Program-made: the position numbers and the translations under genes
Assembly: GCA_029946105.1 (NCBI GenBank)
Contig: JAQSDW010000034.1
Coordinates: forward strand, 27,384-69,055
Reading direction: 5' to 3'
Source: Reyranella sp.
Lineage (GTDB): Bacteria; Pseudomonadota; Alphaproteobacteria; Reyranellales; Reyranellaceae
DNA length: 41,672 bases
Shown here: positions 22,017 to 30,000 of the stretch, piece by piece
Position numbering within the stretch: position 1 is the first letter of the stretch
Layout of the letters: every line of letters begins with the position of its first letter
Notes under the pieces: model-generated
The model's database searches: none
Seen by the model: only the letters and a program-made list of their open reading frames with translations
Told to the model about the DNA's origin: nothing

Positions 22017-23270
22017 CTACTCCGCTGCTTCCGCCGACCGCGGCCGAGCCAGATGAAGGGCAATGCGCGCGGCGAGGCGGCCGGCAACCTCATCCTTGGC
22101 CAGAGTCGGCCAATCCTCCACGCCGGTGGCACTGATCAGGTGGACGGTGTTGCGCTCGCCTCCGAAGGTGCCGGTGGCGGGCGAAACGTCATTGGCCACG
22201 ATCCAATCGCAGCCCTTGCGCTGGCGCTTGTCGATCGCATTGGCCACCAGGTTCTCGGTCTCGGCGGCAAAGCCCACGATCAGCGTCGCGCGCCCGGTGC
22301 CGGGCTTCGACAGGGTGGCGAGAATATCGGGGTTGGGTGCGAGGTCGAGCGCCGGTGGCTGCGCGCCCGGCTTCTTCTTGATCTTGGCTTTGGAAGGCTT
22401 CGCCACTTTCCAGTCGGCGACCGCAGCGGCGCAGACGGCGACATCGATGGCGCCGGCGGCGAGGCAGGCCGCCAGCATCTCGTCGGCCGAATCGACATGC
22501 ACCGTGCGCACGCCCGTCGGATCGGCCACCGTGACCGGGCCACTCACCAGCGTGACCTCGGCGCCGAGCCGCGCCAGGGCGGCGGCGATAGCGTGGCCCT
22601 GCTTGCCCGAGGAATGGTTGGAAATGTAGCGCACCGGGTCGATCGCCTCGCGTGTCGGCCCGCTTGTCACCAGCGCGCGCTTGCCGGCCAATGGTTGTTC
22701 AAGGAGCGGCCTAGCGGAAGCCAGCCCCACGGCCAACATCGATTCGATGGCGGCAACGATCTCTGCCGGCTCTGACATACGGCCGGGGCCATGCTCGTTG
22801 CAGGCCATGGCGCCATCGTTGGGGCCGATGAAGGTGACGCCGCGCTTCTTCAGGGTTTCGACATTGGCGACCGTCGCGGCATGGGTCCACATGCGGACGT
22901 TCATGGCGGGTGCGGCGAGCACGGGCTTGTCGGTGGCCAGCAGCACCGTGGCGGCGAGGTCGTCGGCCATACCGCCTGCCATGCGCGCCAGGATATTGGC
23001 GGTGGCGGGTGCCACGACCAGCAGGTCGGCATCGCGCGAGAGCTGGATGTGGCCCATCTCGTTCTCGTCGGTCAGCGAGAACATGTCGGTGTAGACGCGG
23101 TCTTCCGACAGGGCCTGCAGCGACAGCGGCGTCACGAATTTGGCGCCCGCTTCGGTGACCACACATCGCACCGCCGCGCCGCGCTCGCGCAGACGACGGA
23201 TCAGCTCGAGCGACTTGAAGGCAGCTATGCCGCCCGCGACGATCAGCAGGATTCGCTTGCCGTGCAACAT
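22017..23270 (-). CDS. coaBC: Bifunctional phosphopantothenoylcysteine decarboxylase/synthetase
   Basis: A 417-residue fused CoaC-CoaB enzyme. The FMN-dependent decarboxylase half has H74 (GHIQLSR), the PAMN motif at 121-124 and C157 in [14 protein letters not shown]. The CTP-dependent synthetase half has [28 protein letters not shown] with the KIKKK substrate loop, and VANDVS. All catalytic residues expected from E. coli Dfp are present. Together they turn phosphopantothenate and cysteine into phosphopantetheine. It lies between a TauE-type transporter and dut, 13 bases from the former. Confidence 0.96.
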
Positions 23271-23283
23271 GCCCGTTAGACTA

Positions 23284-24024
23284 TCACAACAGGCGGCTGG
23301 TGAAAGTATAGACGCCCGTCAGCAGCAGCGCCCAGAACACGGCCAGGCGGAACTGCTCCACCGACAGGCGCAGGCGGATCTGCTGCCCGACCCACATACC
23401 CGCGAGCGCCGGCCCGACGGCAACCGCCGACACGATGGCCCGCGGGCCGTCGAGGAGACCGAAAAAGAGCAGCGATGCGGTAAGCGTGAGCGACGTGGCG
23501 CACAGCACGACGCCCAGGGTCTGCACCAGCTCCGACGGCTTGATATCGAGCCCCTGCAGGTAGGGCATCAGGGGAATGATCGGCACGCCGACGAGGCCCG
23601 CCACAAAGCCGGATACGACGCCGACCACCGGCGCCAGGGGCCGCTCCAGATCGGCATGGATATGAAGCCGGATGCGCAGCAGGCCGAGGCCGCTATAGAC
23701 GATCAACACCGCCGCCAGGACGAGGAACGCCCAGTTCGGGCCCTTTTGGCCGATTAGCCACATGGTGAGATAGAGCGAGATCGCCAACGGCACCATGAGG
23801 GGCCATTGGCGTCGCGCGATGATCCGGAACTGGCCGCCGATCGCGGCCTGCCAGACGTTGGTGAAGATGGTCGGGAGCGCGATCAGGGCGATCGACTCCG
23901 TCAATGGCAGGACAAGCGACGTGAGCGCAATCGTGATGGTCGGCAAGCCGAGACCCACCAGCCCTTTGACCGTTCCCGCCAGCAGGAACACCGAGAGACC
24001 GAAGACGATATCCTGCGTCGTCAT
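23284..24024 (-). CDS. TauE/SafE-family membrane transporter
   Basis: A 246-residue integral membrane protein with about eight hydrophobic segments. The first contains FLLAGTVKGLVGLGLPTITIAL and the second half repeats with VVGVVSGFVAGLVGVPIIPLMPYLQG, the internal duplication typical of TauE/SafE (sulfite/organosulfonate exporter) proteins. The substrate is not known. It begins 3 bases after the ubiB stop and ends 13 bases before coaBC, so it was added inside the conserved ubiE-ubiB-coaBC-dut series. Confidence 0.9.
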   Translation of the reverse strand: MTTQDIVFGLSVFLLAGTVKGLVGLGLPTITIALTSLVLPLTESIALIALPTIFTNVWQAAIGGQFRIIARRQWPLMVPLAISLYLTMWLIGQKGPNWAFLVLAAVLIVYSGLGLLRIRLHIHADLERPLAPVVGVVSGFVAGLVGVPIIPLMPYLQGLDIKPSELVQTLGVVLCATSLTLTASLLFFGLLDGPRAIVSAVAVGPALAGMWVGQQIRLRLSVEQFRLAVFWALLLTGVYTFTSRLL

Positions 24025-24027
24025 CCT

Positions 24028-25560
24028 CTAGTGCCACCAGGCCACGAAGGCGGCGACGAGGGCGAGCACGGCCACTGCTTCGGCGAAGCCGATGCGTGGC
24101 CACGCGCGACCCGAAGCCGGCAGCGGCGGGGCGGCGGCACGTTCGGCGATGCGGCGCTCGTGCTCGACGACGAGATGGAGGCTGTCGATCAGGCGCGGCA
24201 GGCGCCGGATCGCCTGGGCAACATCCTCGACCGCGCGTCCGACGGTGGCACGCGGCCCGAAATGCGTGCGCATCCATTCCTCGATCAACGGCCGCGCCAG
24301 CTCCCAGATATTGACTTTGGGATTGAGCTTGGTGCCCATGCCCTCGGCCATCAGCATGGTCTTCTGCAGCAGCAACAGCTGCGGCTGCACCGCCATCTCG
24401 AACTGTTCGGTGACGCGTAAGAGCTGGGCAAGCAGGCGGGCGATCGAGATATCGTAGCTCGGCTTGCCGAAGATCGGCTCGCCGATCGAACGGCAGGCCT
24501 GGGCGAACATTTCCAGCGACTGGTTGGGTGGCACGTAGCCGGCGCGGAACTGGACCTCGGCGACGGCGCGATAGTCTCGCCGCAGGAAGGCAACCAGCAG
24601 CTCGGCGAGATAGCCGCGCGTGTCCTCGTCGATCCGGCCCATGATGCCGAAATCGACCGGCACGACGCGGCCCTCGCGATCGACGAAGGCGTTGCCACCG
24701 TGCATGTCGGCATGGAAAAAGCCGTCGCGGAACACCTGATAGAAGAACGCCTCGGCGCAGGTCTTCATGACGACGTCGGCGTCGTGGCCCGCCGCCACGA
24801 TGGCGTCGCGGTCGCCGATCGGAATGCCGTCGATCCGTTCCAGCGTCAGCACCCGCTGGGCCGTGCGGTCCCAGTCGATTGTGGGCGCCCGATAGCCCGG
24901 ATCGTCGACAAAGTTTCCACCCAGCTCTTCGGCTGCCGCGGCCTCCATGCGCAGGTCCATTTCGACGCGCACCACGTCGGCGAAGGCGCGCACCGAATCG
25001 ACCGGCTTCAGCCGGCGGAAACGCGGCTGCGTGCGCTCGACCAGCTCGGCCATCCAGTAGAAGAGATCGAGGTCACGCTCGAAGGCCTTTTCGATGCGGG
25101 GCCGCAGCACTTTGACCGCAACGTCGCGGCCGTCGGTGGTGACGGCGAAATGCACCTGGGCGATCGAGGCAGCCGCCACAGGCTCATCCTCGAAGCTTGT
25201 GAACAAAGCCTCCAGCGGTCTCCCCAGTTCGCTCTCGACGATGCGACGGGCTTCGGCAGCGGAGAAGGCCGGCAGATGATCTTGCAGGCGCCCCAGGTCG
25301 GCCGCGACACCTTCGTCGAGGAGGTCGGCCCGGGTCGAGAGCGCCTGGCCGAGCTTGATGAAGGACGGCCCCATCTCCTGCAGGGCCGCCGCCAGCCGCT
25401 CGCCGGGTCGACGCGGGTCGCGGCGGCGGGCGAACAGTCGCGCCCAGGCGATCAGTGCCGGTGCGATGCCCAGCGTCTCGAGCGGAAACAGCGCATCGTG
25501 GCGGGCAAAGCTCAGCGCCATGCGCAGCAGGCGCCAGCTGTTGCGAAGGGCACGCAGCAT
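24028..25560 (-). CDS. ubiB: UbiB-family atypical kinase for ubiquinone biosynthesis
   Basis: A 510-residue ABC1/ADCK-type atypical kinase needed for ubiquinone biosynthesis. The diagnostic KLGQALSTR (KxGQ motif) is at residues 69-77, the Ala-rich nucleotide loop region AAASIAQVH at about 132, the metal/active-site DMHGGNAFVD and the VDFGIMGRI loop later. The C-terminal hydrophobic segment (about 485-508) anchors it in the membrane. The ATG directly follows the ubiE stop (TAG then ATG). Its neighbours ubiE, coaBC and dut are the usual ones. Confidence 0.95.
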   Translation of the reverse strand: MLRALRNSWRLLRMALSFARHDALFPLETLGIAPALIAWARLFARRRDPRRPGERLAAALQEMGPSFIKLGQALSTRADLLDEGVAADLGRLQDHLPAFSAAEARRIVESELGRPLEALFTSFEDEPVAAASIAQVHFAVTTDGRDVAVKVLRPRIEKAFERDLDLFYWMAELVERTQPRFRRLKPVDSVRAFADVVRVEMDLRMEAAAAEELGGNFVDDPGYRAPTIDWDRTAQRVLTLERIDGIPIGDRDAIVAAGHDADVVMKTCAEAFFYQVFRDGFFHADMHGGNAFVDREGRVVPVDFGIMGRIDEDTRGYLAELLVAFLRRDYRAVAEVQFRAGYVPPNQSLEMFAQACRSIGEPIFGKPSYDISIARLLAQLLRVTEQFEMAVQPQLLLLQKTMLMAEGMGTKLNPKVNIWELARPLIEEWMRTHFGPRATVGRAVEDVAQAIRRLPRLIDSLHLVVEHERRIAERAAAPPLPASGRAWPRIGFAEAVAVLALVAAFVAWWH

Positions 25561-26349
25561 CTAGACGCGCCAGCCGCTGTGCAACGCCACGACACCCAGC
25601 GTCATGTCGCGCCAGGCAACGTTCGCGAGCCCGGTCGCGCGCATGCGCACGGCCAGTTCGCGCTGGGGAGGAAAGCGACGGATGCTCTCGTGCAGATAAC
25701 GATAGGAGCCGGCATCGCTGGCAACAAGCTTGCCGAAGAACGGCAACGCCCGCTCCGAGTAGGCGTCATAGACGCGACCCAGGGCCGGTGACGTCATCTT
25801 GCTGAATTCCAGGCAATAGAAGCGTCCCCCCGGCTTCAGTATCCGGTAGGCCTCGGCCAGCGCCTTGTCGATGTTGGTGACGTTGCGCAGGCCGAAGGCG
25901 ATCGTGTAGCCATCGAACGACCGGTCCGGAAACGGCAGCGCCTCGGCATCACCCGTCGTCCAGGTGAGGCCATTCAGAAGCCCGCGGTCGACCGCCCGGT
26001 CGCGACCGACCGCCAGCATCGCCGGATTGATGTCGCAAACAGTGACGTCGGGCCGTCCGGGCCCCTTGCTTCCGGTTTGGCGTCCGAGGAGGCGGAAGGC
26101 GATGTCGCCGGTGCCGCCCGCCACGTCGAGGAATTTCTCGCCCGGTCGCGGATTGACCACGTTGACCAGGGTGTTCTTCCAAAGGCGATGGACACCACCC
26201 GACATCAGGTCGTTCATCAGGTCGTAGCGCGGCGCCACGCTTTCGAACACCTGGCGCACCATGCCGGCCTTGTCGGCCGCCGGAACGTCACGATAGCCGA
26301 AGGATGCCTGTGCGGAGGGGTCTGACGCGCTAGGATCGGACTGAGTCAT
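25561..26349 (-). CDS. ubiE: Demethylmenaquinone/2-methoxy-6-polyprenyl-1,4-benzoquinol methyltransferase
   Basis: A 262-residue SAM-dependent C-methyltransferase of the ubiquinone pathway. After a Ser/Asp/Pro-rich leader come VRQVFESVAPRYDLMNDLMS (UbiE signature 1), the SAM loop FLDVAGGTGDIAF, YTIAFGLRNVTNIDKAL (signature 2) and LKPGGRFYCLEFSK. All are intact. The ATG at 26349 gives the family N-terminus; the frame stays open far upstream, but that part is antisense to the next gene. It is divergent from the SDR gene at 26374 with only 24 bases between the start codons, so its promoter must lie inside that gene. Confidence 0.95.
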   Translation of the reverse strand: MTQSDPSASDPSAQASFGYRDVPAADKAGMVRQVFESVAPRYDLMNDLMSGGVHRLWKNTLVNVVNPRPGEKFLDVAGGTGDIAFRLLGRQTGSKGPGRPDVTVCDINPAMLAVGRDRAVDRGLLNGLTWTTGDAEALPFPDRSFDGYTIAFGLRNVTNIDKALAEAYRILKPGGRFYCLEFSKMTSPALGRVYDAYSERALPFFGKLVASDAGSYRYLHESIRRFPPQRELAVRMRATGLANVAWRDMTLGVVALHSGWRV

Positions 26350-26373
26350 GGGTTGCAACTTAGAGGAACCGCC

Positions 26374-27108
26374 ATGCTGCTGAAAGACCGGGTGATCCTG
26401 ATCACCAATGTCGAGAAGTTCGCTGGCCACGGCACCACACAGGTGGCCCTTGCCCAGGGCGCCACCGTGCTGGCCCACGATCCCTCGTTCGAGGCGCCCA
26501 GTGTGCGCCACAAATACGAGGCCCAGTTCCAGGGCGCCCATGCGCTGTCGTCCGCCGACGCGCCGACCATGGTCGAGCTGGCCCTCAGGCGCCACGGACA
26601 CATCGACGCGCTGGTCAACAACGACGCCTATCCGGCGCTGCGCGCGCCGCTCGGCGAGGCCCGCCTGGAGGACTATCGCGCGGCGCTGGAGGCCATGGCG
26701 GTGGCACCGTTCCGGATCGCCCAGCTGGTGGCGCCTTCGATGCGCAAGCGCAAGTCCGGCCGGATCGTGTTCGTGTCCTCGGCGGCGCCATTCCGCGGCA
26801 TCGCCAACTACGCGCCCTACGTCTCGGCGCGGGCGGCGGCCAACGGCCTGGTGTCGTCGCTCGCCAAGGAACTTGGCCGCGATGGCATCACGGTGAACGC
26901 CGTCGGTTCGAACTACGTCGAAAACCCCGACTACTTCCCGCCGGCGCTGCTGGCCAACCGCGAAGCGATGGCCAAGATGACGGCGCAAATCCCTCTCGGC
27001 CGGCTCGGCAAGTCCGACGAGCTGGGCGCCACGATATGTTTCCTGTGTTCCGATGGAGCGGGCTTCATCACCGGCCATGTCCTGCCCCACGCCGGTGGCT
27101 GGGCGTGA
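26374..27108 (+). CDS. Halohydrin dehalogenase-like SDR (HheC-type fingerprints)
   Basis: A 244-residue SDR-fold protein carrying both fingerprints that separate halohydrin dehalogenases from ordinary SDRs. The nucleotide-loop motif T-x4-F-x-G is met by T11, F16, G18 (TNVEKFAGHG), and the triad S-x12-Y-x3-R by S136, Y149, R153 (Arg replaces the SDR Lys). Further stretches resemble HheC: MRKRKSGRIVFVSSAAPF, NNDAYPA, and NYVENPDYFPP at the position of the halide-binding loop. The expected reaction is halide release from vicinal halohydrins to give epoxides, without a nicotinamide cofactor. GAGGAA precedes the ATG. No haloalkane dehalogenase or epoxide hydrolase lies nearby. It takes the position beside ubiE where mutM is often found. 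Confidence 0.82.
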   Translation: MLLKDRVILITNVEKFAGHGTTQVALAQGATVLAHDPSFEAPSVRHKYEAQFQGAHALSSADAPTMVELALRRHGHIDALVNNDAYPALRAPLGEARLEDYRAALEAMAVAPFRIAQLVAPSMRKRKSGRIVFVSSAAPFRGIANYAPYVSARAAANGLVSSLAKELGRDGITVNAVGSNYVENPDYFPPALLANREAMAKMTAQIPLGRLGKSDELGATICFLCSDGAGFITGHVLPHAGGWA

Positions 27109-27420: not shown

Positions 27421-27656
27421 AGTTGAAACGGCGGGACGAGAGGCCGCGCCGTCAGCGTCAACCTATGTTCGCCCCGTAAGATCAATCGAGTTCACCCGGC
27501 CGCTCCTCTCCCTTGCTAGCAGGGGAATGGCCGCGTGCGCCGGTGATCTCGAAGCCAGCGCGCCCTCACCCTACTGGTGGCGGCGCCGTGTGGTGGATCG
27601 AGCTGGCGTTTCGCCGAGGCGACGGGACTCCGAGCGACTCTTTTTGATTGCTTTTG

Positions 27657-27685
27657 TTGCCGGTTTTGCTGGTTCTTGCTATGAT
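27657..27685 (+). promoter_or_regulatory. Sigma70-type promoter of the Rieske oxygenase gene
   Basis: TTGCCG (27657-27662), a 17-base spacer and TATGAT (27680-27685) form a good sigma70-type promoter 40 bases upstream of the Rieske start. The region around it is T-rich compared with its surroundings. Transcription would start near 27692, directly at the palindromic operator. Confidence 0.72.
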
Positions 27686-27693
27686 CGTACAAA

Positions 27694-27710
27694 CGTCCGT
27701 ATAGCGGACG
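27694..27710 (+). promoter_or_regulatory. Palindromic operator, probable IclR-type site
   Basis: CGTCCG-TATAG-CGGACG is a perfect 6-bp inverted repeat around a 5-base centre, placed just downstream of the -10 of the Rieske promoter and 14 bases before its start codon. A bound protein here would block transcription. An IclR regulator gene is directly downstream of the Rieske gene, making it the natural candidate (inference). Confidence 0.65.
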
Positions 27711-27724
27711 AATTGGAGGACACC

Positions 27725-29053
27725 ATGCTTACAGCAGCAAAGAATGAGATGCTGACGCGTGTTGGACCCGGGACGCCCATGGGCGACCTGATGCGCCAAT
27801 ACTGGATTCCCGCCTGCCTTTCGGAGGAATTGAAGCCAGACGGCGAACCGATGCGGCTCCTGCTGCTGGGCGAGCAGCTGATCGCTTTCCGCGATACCGA
27901 CGGCCGGATCGGCGTCATGGAGCATCGCTGCCCGCACCGTTGCGCCTCGTTGTTCTTCGGGCGCAACGAGGAAGGTGGCCTGCGCTGCATCTATCACGGC
28001 TGGAAATTCGACGTGGAAGGCAACTGCCTCGACATGCCGAACGTGCCGCCGGCCCAGGACTTCAAGCACCGCGTCAAGGCCAAGGCCTACAAGGTCGTCG
28101 AGCGGGCCGGCTTCGTCTGGACCTACATGGGACCCCGCGCGGAAGCACCGCCGCTGCCGAATATCGAAATCCTGATGCTGCCCGAGGCGGAACGCTTCAC
28201 GCGCGTCCACCAGCGCGAATGCAACTGGTTCCAGTCGCTGGAAGGCGACATCGACACCTCGCACTTCGGCTTCCTGCACATCGGCGGCCTCACGGTGGAT
28301 GACGTCGATCCCAGCACCATCCATCGCTGGGGCGTCGGCGATCGCGCGCCCGACTACAAGGCGACGGAGACGGAATGGGGCACGATGTACGCGGCCTACC
28401 GCCCGGCCGATCCCGGCACCTACTACTACCGCTTCGCGCACTTCCTGTTCCCGTTCATCACCTTCACGCCCAATGGCTCGTTCGAGGACCAGGTCGCGTG
28501 CACGCTCAACGTGCCGATGGATGACACGCACACCATGACCTACAACGTCGCCTGGAAGCAGAAGACGCGGCCATTGGAGACACTGGCGAACGGCGACTGG
28601 ATCCCGGGCCTGGCGCCCGACATGAAGTTCCTGCCCAACACCAACGACTGGTATGGCCGTCATCGCCTCGTCGCACGTCGCGAGAACGACTACTTCATCG
28701 ACCGCGACATGCAGAAGAACGTCAATTACACCGGCATCCAGGGCATCGGCCGCCAGGACCAGGCGGCGGTGGAATGCATGGGCGAGGTTGTCGATCGCAG
28801 CCTGGAACATCTGGCGCCTTCCGATCGCATGATCGCCATCACGCGCAAGCGGCTGCTGACCGCGGCGCAGGAACTGATGAACGAGAAGAAGGTGCCGGCC
28901 ACGGTCGACAATCCCGACATCTATCGCGGCGCGCGCGGTGGCGCGTTCATCGCCTCGGCCAAACTCGACTGGCTCGACGCCTATGCCGAGAACATGCAGA
29001 CGGCGAAGAGCCCGCTCGGGTTGCTCGCGCGAATGGCCCTGGCGGCCGAATAG
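27725..29053 (+). CDS. Rieske non-heme iron oxygenase, alpha subunit (phthalate 4,5-dioxygenase-like)
   Basis: A 442-residue ring-hydroxylating oxygenase subunit. The Rieske [2Fe-2S] ligands are C69, H71, C88 and H91 (CPHRCASLFFG ... CIYHGW). The mononuclear iron region SLEGDIDTSHFGFLH gives H180 and H185 with a nearby Asp. The closest recognisable type is the phthalate 4,5-dioxygenase/vanillate demethylase group, which hydroxylates or demethylates aromatic acids using a separate reductase. No reductase gene is adjacent. GGAGG lies about 5 bases before the ATG at 27725. It is controlled by the promoter/palindrome just upstream, probably through the IclR regulator downstream. Confidence 0.92.
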   Translation: MLTAAKNEMLTRVGPGTPMGDLMRQYWIPACLSEELKPDGEPMRLLLLGEQLIAFRDTDGRIGVMEHRCPHRCASLFFGRNEEGGLRCIYHGWKFDVEGNCLDMPNVPPAQDFKHRVKAKAYKVVERAGFVWTYMGPRAEAPPLPNIEILMLPEAERFTRVHQRECNWFQSLEGDIDTSHFGFLHIGGLTVDDVDPSTIHRWGVGDRAPDYKATETEWGTMYAAYRPADPGTYYYRFAHFLFPFITFTPNGSFEDQVACTLNVPMDDTHTMTYNVAWKQKTRPLETLANGDWIPGLAPDMKFLPNTNDWYGRHRLVARRENDYFIDRDMQKNVNYTGIQGIGRQDQAAVECMGEVVDRSLEHLAPSDRMIAITRKRLLTAAQELMNEKKVPATVDNPDIYRGARGGAFIASAKLDWLDAYAENMQTAKSPLGLLARMALAAE

Positions 29054-29079
29054 ACACGGCGAGACGGCTGCGGGAGACA

Positions 29080-29100
29080 GCCGCCGCAACATGCGGCGGC
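29080..29100 (+). other. Strong hairpin after the Rieske gene
   Basis: A perfect 9-bp stem (GCCGCCGCA / TGCGGCGGC) with a 3-base loop lies 27 bases after the Rieske stop. No T-run follows, so it is not a classical terminator; it may stabilise the mRNA 3' end or reduce read-through into the IclR gene. The rest of the gap to 29199 shows nothing clear. Confidence 0.45.
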
Positions 29101-29199
29101 GCGGTCGATGGTGGTTGGCGACACGATTACCCTGCTGGTTGACGCCAACAACGCCTGGGCGCTTCAGCCCTGATCGTCACCGGCTTCTGGAGAGTGTAG

Positions 29200-30000
29200 A
29201 TGGCGCGATTGCGGGCGGTGGACGCGGAGAAAAGGGCGGCGAGCGGCCATGGGCCTGACTTCCTCGAAGCCTTCGCGCGGGGCCTGCGGGTCATCGCCGC
29301 CTTTGGACGCCAGAAGAGCCACATGACCCTGAGCGACGTCGCCCGGGCCACCGACTTGCCCAAGCCCAGCGTGCGGCGCGCGCTCTACACGCTTACCTGC
29401 CTGGGATTGGCCGCCCGCGACGGCCGCACGTTCCGTCTGACGCCGCGCATTATGGAACTGGCATCGGCCTATCTCGGGTCGAACATGGTCTCGACCGTCG
29501 TCCAGCCGGCCTGCGAGCGCATCGGCGACCGCACTGAGCAATCATGCTTCGCAGCGGTGCTCGACGGCTACGACATCGTCATGATCGCCCATTCCCTGCA
29601 TGGTCGTCCCGACGTGCTTGCCCCCACGATCGGTCTCAGGCGGCCGGCCTTCAACACCGCGGCGGGCCGCGTCATCCTGAGCCAGCTTCCCGACGCGACG
29701 CTCGACGCCTGGCTCGACAAGCTCGAGCCCAAGGTCATGACGGACTTCACCGTCACCGACAAACGGGTATTGCGGGAGGAAATCCTGCATGTGCGCCAGC
29801 AGGGCTACGCCATCACGGCGCAGGAGATGCGCCGCGGCTTTCATGCCGTCGCGGTGCCGCTCAAGCGCTATGACGGTGCCACGATCGCCGCCATATGCGT
29901 GGCCGCCTGGCTCGAAGACTCCTCGATCGGTTCGGTCGCCGAGAATTACCTGGCCGTGCTGCGCGACGAGACGGAAGCGCTCGAGCAGCGACTGCTCTAG
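29200..30000 (+). CDS. IclR-family transcriptional regulator (PcaR/PobR-like)
   Basis: A 266-residue IclR regulator. An N-terminal winged helix (MTLSDVARATDLPKPSVRRALYTL, about residues 42-65) is followed by a GAF-like effector domain with NTAAGRVILSQLP, EMRRGFHAVAVPL and IAAICVAAW, as in protocatechuate and p-hydroxybenzoate regulators. It probably binds an aromatic acid. GGAGAG precedes the ATG. It is downstream of the Rieske oxygenase gene on the same strand, and the palindrome at 27694-27710 is its probable operator. The stop codon overlaps that of the convergent MocR gene through the four bases CTAG. Confidence 0.9.
   Translation: MARLRAVDAEKRAASGHGPDFLEAFARGLRVIAAFGRQKSHMTLSDVARATDLPKPSVRRALYTLTCLGLAARDGRTFRLTPRIMELASAYLGSNMVSTVVQPACERIGDRTEQSCFAAVLDGYDIVMIAHSLHGRPDVLAPTIGLRRPAFNTAAGRVILSQLPDATLDAWLDKLEPKVMTDFTVTDKRVLREEILHVRQQGYAITAQEMRRGFHAVAVPLKRYDGATIAAICVAAWLEDSSIGSVAENYLAVLRDETEALEQRLL

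Follow-up and report, generated by a model that had tools for sequence, protein, structure and literature searches.

Halohydrin dehalogenases (HHDHs), the motifs by which they are recognized and a structure 90% identical to the protein analyzed here are already known. The motifs are defined in section 5 of PMC4989007, where motif 1 is given as T-x4-F/Y-x-G, and section 4 of the same source describes the reaction mechanism and the C-terminal extension of HheC. PMC11976700 places the genes of HheC and an epoxide hydrolase in one operon, and PMC5292711 reports industrial use of HHDHs, e.g., for a building block of atorvastatin. The known structure is PDB 6A41, released on 2019-06-19 as a "dehalogenase" or "Dehalogenation enzyme" (Foldseek title). 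No paper found in the literature joins "halohydrin dehalogenase" with "Reyranella" or "6A41", nor "dehalogenase" with "6A41", and the label of this entry may itself rest on sequence since no paper behind it was found. A search that excluded supplementary tables found no publication in which an HHDH is described as belonging to the Reyranella core genome at a constant place beside ubiE, and published HHDH lists may contain a Reyranella entry.

The HHDH gene described here belongs to a 5.62-Mb draft genome of Reyranella sp. and lies in a stretch of 41,672 nucleotides that was analyzed as a whole (the window). It occupies positions 26374-27108 on the plus strand and encodes a 244-aa orthologue of 6A41. 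The preliminary description had reported both family motifs, and the translation bears them out. Motif 1 (T-x4-F-x-G; 26404-26427, plus strand) reads TNVEKFAG at residues 11-18, with T11, F16 and G18 in the expected positions, and occupies the place of the glycine-rich NAD(P) loop of short-chain dehydrogenases/reductases (SDRs). Motif 2 (S-x12-Y-x3-R; 26779-26832, plus strand) supplies the catalytic triad S136, Y149 and R153 within the segment SAAPFRGIANYAPYVSAR. The stretches described as shared with HheC are likewise present, namely KRKSGRIVF, N83-D84 and N180-Y181, and N83, D84 and N180 are invariant in an alignment of 22 sequences.

In the alignment, S179-N180-Y181 (26908-26916, plus strand) belongs to the loop of the nucleophile (halide) pocket and replaces the P-G of SDRs. 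This loop is indeed about two residues shorter than that of HheC, as had been described, but it is not an oddity of the Reyranella protein: HheA2, HheB and HheD2 share its length in a MAFFT alignment, which makes HheC the long-loop exception. Serine precedes N180 in all eight Reyranella-type rows of the 22-sequence alignment, the kin L037 and L031 included, while the 14 other rows have proline at this position in 12 cases, serine in L042 and alanine in L056.

Compared to classical NAD(P)-dependent SDRs, the protein is altered at each of the aligned functional sites. TGxxxGxG has become TNVEKFAG, NNAG has become NNDA, the catalytic Asn is replaced by Met108, YxxxK reads YVSAR and PG reads SN; both hallmarks of the classical enzymes, the TGxxxGxG loop and YxxxK, are therefore missing. 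Judged from these residues, F16, N180-Y181 and the loss of TG and PG point to a spacious anion pocket rather than a dinucleotide site, and the protein is probably cofactor-free. Neither seven SDR paralogues encoded in this genome nor 19 further ones contain motif 1 (20 were sought; tblastn found nothing for L161, and the L164 sequence is a fragment of 62 aa). One of these SDRs, L159, matches motif 2 yet has an ordinary Y-x3-K and glycine loop. With motif 1 missing from every SDR paralogue examined, SDRs of this genome do not carry the HHDH motifs by chance.

The family assignment is supported by these motifs together with a PDB sequence search, structure comparison and phylogeny. In a phmmer search of the PDB, the best match was 6A41 (E 1.5e-146), ranks 2 to 10 were all HheC or HheA entries (E 2.4e-42 to 2.6e-36), and these were followed by 7b73 (8.3e-29; titled HheD2), 8xxb and HheB. 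The first FabG appeared at 1.8e-24, 12 to 18 orders of magnitude weaker than the nine HheC/HheA entries. An AlphaFold monomer model (pLDDT 91.7) matched 6A41 with a Z score of 38.5, HheC with 32.6-33.3, HheA with 31.8 and FabG 4nbu with 31.8; because the FabG ties with HheA, the fold alone says only that this is an SDR fold. Profile libraries gave generic results: the two Pfam matches are both to generic SDR families, the 25 NCBIfam models listed of 207 matched are all SDR/FabG-type oxidoreductases, each below its own cut-off, and no HHDH-specific model is among the Pfam matches and these 25 of 207 NCBIfam matches.

The preliminary description had proposed phylogeny as a test, and no firm placement among NAD(P)-dependent SDRs resulted. 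A tree of 63 proteins separates its 51 HHDH-type rows, with 100/100 support, from 12 SDRs that the Reyranella genome itself encodes. A quick tree had been built from 54 rows picked out of 123 unique ones, the query, seven references and seven SDRs; for the careful tree, L154, L152b, L155b, L155, L156, L009, L028, L038, L143 and L144 were removed along with HheC_3zn2, SDR_L002 and SDR_L006, and eight SDRs were added, one of them the fragment L164, which is contained in the drawn tree and left out of the topology tests and the 63-protein tree. Forcing a 13-row clade of Reyranella and its kin together with the SDR rows L005, L007 and L008 cost 126 log units and was rejected (p-AU 5e-5). A topology that attaches the full set of 12 SDRs to the clade of seven Reyranella rows was not rejected (p-AU 0.255), so the root may fall inside the HHDHs.

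Within the HHDH-type part of the tree, from which subtypes HheE, HheF and HheG are absent, 6A41 lies inside the Reyranella clade, adjoining R. aquatilis. HheC sits on a long branch and groups with two proteins from Rhodospirillales metagenome-assembled genomes, L137 and L129 (98/92), which stem from a locus set biased toward the N-Y pair discussed below. HheA2 groups with four alphaproteobacterial proteins (98/94), and HheB, HheD2, 8xxb and L148 form a 100/100 clade separate from the Reyranella HHDH. A clade of the 13 rows with HheC alone was not rejected (p-AU 0.329), while one with HheA2 alone was (p-AU 0.020).

Collectively, these results make it almost certain that the protein belongs to the HHDH family. 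It is very probably a true HHDH of the A/C-like branch, which retains the SDR fold but no longer binds NAD(P) and carries out HHDH chemistry, a statement about family and chemistry and not about cellular role. Cofactor-free halohydrin and epoxide chemistry in vitro is, from the residues retained, highly likely, and the active form is presumably a tetramer. By analogy with HheC and HheA, Ser136 would hold the hydroxyl of the substrate or the epoxide oxygen, and Tyr149, with its pKa lowered by Arg153, would take up or return a proton. A small anion (a halide, perhaps also cyanide, nitrite or azide) would leave to, or attack from, a pocket at the former dinucleotide site that is lined, on the same analogy, by Thr11, Phe16, Gly18 and the Ser179-Asn180-Tyr181 loop.

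An N-Y pair, N145-Y146 (26806-26811, plus strand), stands shortly before the catalytic tyrosine in the Reyranella protein, in closer alphaproteobacterial relatives and in 6A41. It is found in 25 of the 27 best-scoring non-Reyranella relatives, rows that come from a protein search and are its best-scoring ones; the other two have D-Y and N-F. The counterpart of the pair is E-L in HheC, Y-N in HheA2, G-A in HheB and R-A in HheD2. A count of N-Y in 103 of 123 unique rows is biased, as one fetch pattern for 80 loci contained the N-Y segment itself. Nine of the weaker class-level matches possess motif 2, and just two of them carry N-Y; the pair is therefore typical of the nearer relatives and not of the whole family. 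Among these nearer relatives it is a candidate mark of substrate specificity. In HheC, Leu142, the counterpart of Y146, lines the substrate site.

Motif 1 itself varies among the 66 unique non-Reyranella rows, with Trp in six and Ser in four. Trp occupies the aromatic position (T-x4-W-x-G) in L122, L127, L134, L040, L042 and L043, and Ser replaces the Thr in L037, L052, L117 (Vineibacter terrae), L118 and L124. In PMC11976700, a saturation study of HheC lists G, A, C, S, Q, H and Y, and not W, as active variants of F12, and a change of Thr to Ser at the motif 1 position kept activity in HheC and HheG. These variants widen the motif, and motif-based mining would miss such relatives. Tandem pairs of HHDH-like genes (L152, L155 and L156) were observed in three alphaproteobacterial genomes of 1.6-2.3 Mb (G121, G230 and G320), one member of each pair being without either motif.

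The gene is a core gene within Reyranella. It was found in 57 of 65 Reyranella genomes sampled; for good-quality genomes alone, the count is 41 of 44. Among the 57, G793 and G007 show only a piece at a contig end, and the gene is single-copy in 56, G799 having a full copy and a second fragment. As for the genomes without a match, the ubiE contigs of G018 and G785 end 46 and 12 codons into the HHDH gene, and that of G796 ends within ubiE. In the remaining five (G800, G781, G782, G794 and G795), ubiE is likewise without a match at E<=1e-60, which makes it seem that the assembly lacks the locus. No genuine empty site was seen among the 65 genomes of the genus. The preliminary description had called such enzymes rare, which holds for a draw of genomes across the phylum (4 of 398, the present genome included, at E<=1e-45), but not for a draw across the class (43 of 385 at E<=1e-30, including four Reyranella), and not within Reyranella.

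Strong purifying selection acts on the gene in this genus, with a median dN/dS of 0.082 over 52 comparisons with relatives. Across loci with at least 70% coverage, median identity to the window is 90.2% for the HHDH and 79.2% for UbiE, with the HHDH higher in 50 of 50 loci. It is also more conserved than the products of coaBC (41/41 loci), dut (35/36), tauE (36/38) and ubiB (39/46), and less conserved than that of nrdB (HHDH higher in 0/11).

The gene lies beside ubiE, as had been stated: ubiE (25561-26349, minus strand) is its divergent neighbour, and the two start codons are separated by a 24-bp gap (26350-26373) with an AGAGGA stretch resembling a ribosome-binding site at 26362-26367 on the plus strand. 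Farther upstream lie ubiB (24028-25560), a gene for a TauE/SafE family transporter (23284-24024) and coaBC (22017-23270), all on the minus strand. In the 53 Reyranella-type loci examined, ubiE is the divergent neighbour in every case, followed by ubiB, mostly tauE, coaBC and dut, where the contig reaches. The ubiE and HHDH start codons lie 24-25 bp apart in 45 of the 53 loci and 23-27 bp apart in 48, and an AGAGGAA stretch of the ribosome-binding type is kept in most spacers. Exceptions are L065 (40), L083 (148), L102 (144), L103 (146) and L105 (-2). For L065, L102 and L105, the sequence near the HHDH start resembles that of other loci, so we suspect the choice of ubiE start codon made by the script. 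In L083 and L103, the gap is about 147 bp as opposed to 24; that of L083 contains a palindrome-like stretch (TTCGGCTG...CAGCCGAA), perhaps the insertion of a repeat element. Two metagenome-assembled records titled Asaia bogorensis (L088 and L101) resemble Reyranella both in the HHDH gene itself and in the ubiE synteny, and these titles look wrong.

A functional link to ubiE as such was discarded, as no ubiE match was found in the flanks of the non-Reyranella relatives L113-L115 and L117-L120, and inspection by eye of rough ORF predictions for 14 loci, either kin or more distant, revealed no other constant neighbour. Downstream of the HHDH gene, nrdB is present in 11 of 53 Reyranella-type loci (at least 70% coverage), as in the window, and also in L117, L118 and L120; we see no functional sense in this arrangement. 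Between the HHDH gene and a mocR-like gene, the window (27527-30000) encodes a ring oxygenase of the Rieske/LigXa type and a regulator of the IclR type, the best NCBIfam match of the latter, to PcaR/PcaU/PobR, being under cut-off. A link with this pair was considered and rejected, for neither had a tblastn match (E<=1e-15) in the flanks of 80 related loci, which extend up to 5 kb and are often cut by contig ends; the pair is perhaps a recent insertion. Between 26200 and 27600, a sigma-70 consensus scan found no promoter, and one terminator-like site was found against 0.8 expected.

The absence of dehalogenation genes around the HHDH gene, also part of the preliminary description, was confirmed for the nine neighbouring genes scanned. 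Elsewhere in the genome, five proteins exceed the cut-off for HAD type II (2-haloacid dehalogenase), on C40, C211, C74, C39 and C202 (L177-L181), and two matches exceed that for the epoxide hydrolase N-terminal family (EHN), at C36:20335-20649 and C219:4604-4936. None of these is on the contig of the HHDH gene, and the genome gave no match to a limonene-type epoxide hydrolase. In 14 control genomes, the HAD type II cut-off was exceeded in two and the EHN cut-off in one. A search of 72,556 plasmid records at E<=1e-30 had a sole match, in Microbacterium sp. J1-1 from activated sludge (33.6% identity), whose HHDH gene stands between an epoxide hydrolase gene and glpK with transposases of the IS1634 and ISL3 families around it. 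Nothing of this epoxide hydrolase-HHDH-glpK kind is seen among the nine neighbours of the Reyranella gene.

These observations bear on what the protein does in the cell as well as on what it is. An ordinary NAD(P)-dependent SDR oxidoreductase with motifs matched by chance would account for the generic Pfam and NCBIfam matches and the common fold (FabG Z 31.8), but its catalytic lysine would have to be an arginine and its glycine loop and catalytic Asn gone, while 6A41, HheC and HheA take all of the first ten places in the PDB search. A chance match of this kind was rejected on the motif scan of the SDRs of the same genome and on the rejected nesting with three of them, and this reading is extremely improbable. 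An enzyme of xenobiotic degradation, acquired for haloalcohol use like the plasmid-borne haloalcohol dehalogenases, would be of the same family, and the five HAD type II and two EHN proteins could be counted in its favour, though they are on other contigs. Against this stand the single genus-wide locus and the core, essentially single-copy status of the gene, and a recent xenobiotic operon was discarded on the Reyranella-type synteny and the lack of the epoxide hydrolase, glycerol kinase and transposase genes that flank the J1-1 gene. Acquisition for haloalcohol use is thus unlikely, and a recent role in pollutant degradation is also argued against by conservation above that of the ubiquinone-synthesis neighbours, although the epoxide hydrolases encoded on other contigs could use the product of the HHDH.

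A more serious alternative leaves the family assignment untouched and differs over the cellular role, namely that this is an HHDH-family enzyme without a halide reaction, which performs cofactor-free epoxide opening or beta-elimination on a core metabolite and shows halohydrin activity, if any, as a by-reaction. We would give it somewhat less than even credence. Core-gene behaviour under strong purifying selection, nine neighbours without halogen or epoxide genes, and an N-Y pair common to the nearer relatives and 6A41 and seen in none of HheA2, HheB, HheC and HheD2 all agree with it, and workers on HheC doubt, in PMC11976700, that the substrates tested are the natural ones. However, all 57 unique Reyranella-type sequences retain motif 1, suggesting continued anion binding; 6A41 was deposited as a dehalogenase; and the N-Y pair, scarce among the weaker relatives, is no mark of the whole family. 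For the HHDH proper, the role is most likely, if speculatively, a standing chromosomal handling of natural epoxides or vicinal halohydrins and not the degradation of man-made haloalcohols.

Nearly all sampled Reyranella keep an HHDH beside a ubiquinone gene, and an enzyme type regarded as pollutant-degrading may thus have an everyday job. As a broader and tentative proposal, to which we give slightly less credence than to a role without halide, HHDHs may descend from an old chromosomal enzyme of Alphaproteobacteria with a fixed physiological role, still core in Reyranella, and may not be mainly recent degraders of pollutants. HheC and HheA would then be degradative offshoots nested among such proteins, and the HheC line, whose closest relatives L129 and L137 keep the N-Y pair, would have lost it as it turned to degrading haloalcohols; absence of the pair seems to be more widespread on the HheA side. 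Because Reyranella keeps this gene as core, essentially single-copy, in conserved synteny and under strong purifying selection, the natural role of an HHDH becomes something that a plain gene deletion can address.

Compared to the known systems, the Reyranella HHDH is closest to 6A41, with which it shares 220 of 244 residues over the full length without gaps, both motifs and the N-Y pair, the difference being 24 substitutions; among the loci compared, the natural sequence nearest to 6A41 is L036 (240/244). HheB and HheD2 (PDB 4ZD6 and 7B73) share the family motifs but form their own clade, and the Reyranella protein falls outside the HheB and HheD subtypes. HheA/HheA2 (PDB 4Z9F and 1ZMO; 33-34% identity) resemble it in the motifs, the length of the halide loop and the lack of a C-terminal extension, but it lies outside the HheA subtype, given the rejected clade of HheA2 with the 13 Reyranella-and-kin rows. 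HheC of Agrobacterium radiobacter (PDB 1PWX and others; 35-36% identity, Z 32.6-33.3) shares the motifs, KRKSG-x-I-x-F, ND and the N-Y of the halide loop. The extension carrying Trp249 that marks the HheC subtype is missing from the Reyranella protein, which ends at HheC residue 244 of 254 and further differs in its shorter halide loop, the Ser in place of Pro and the N-Y instead of E-L before the catalytic tyrosine.
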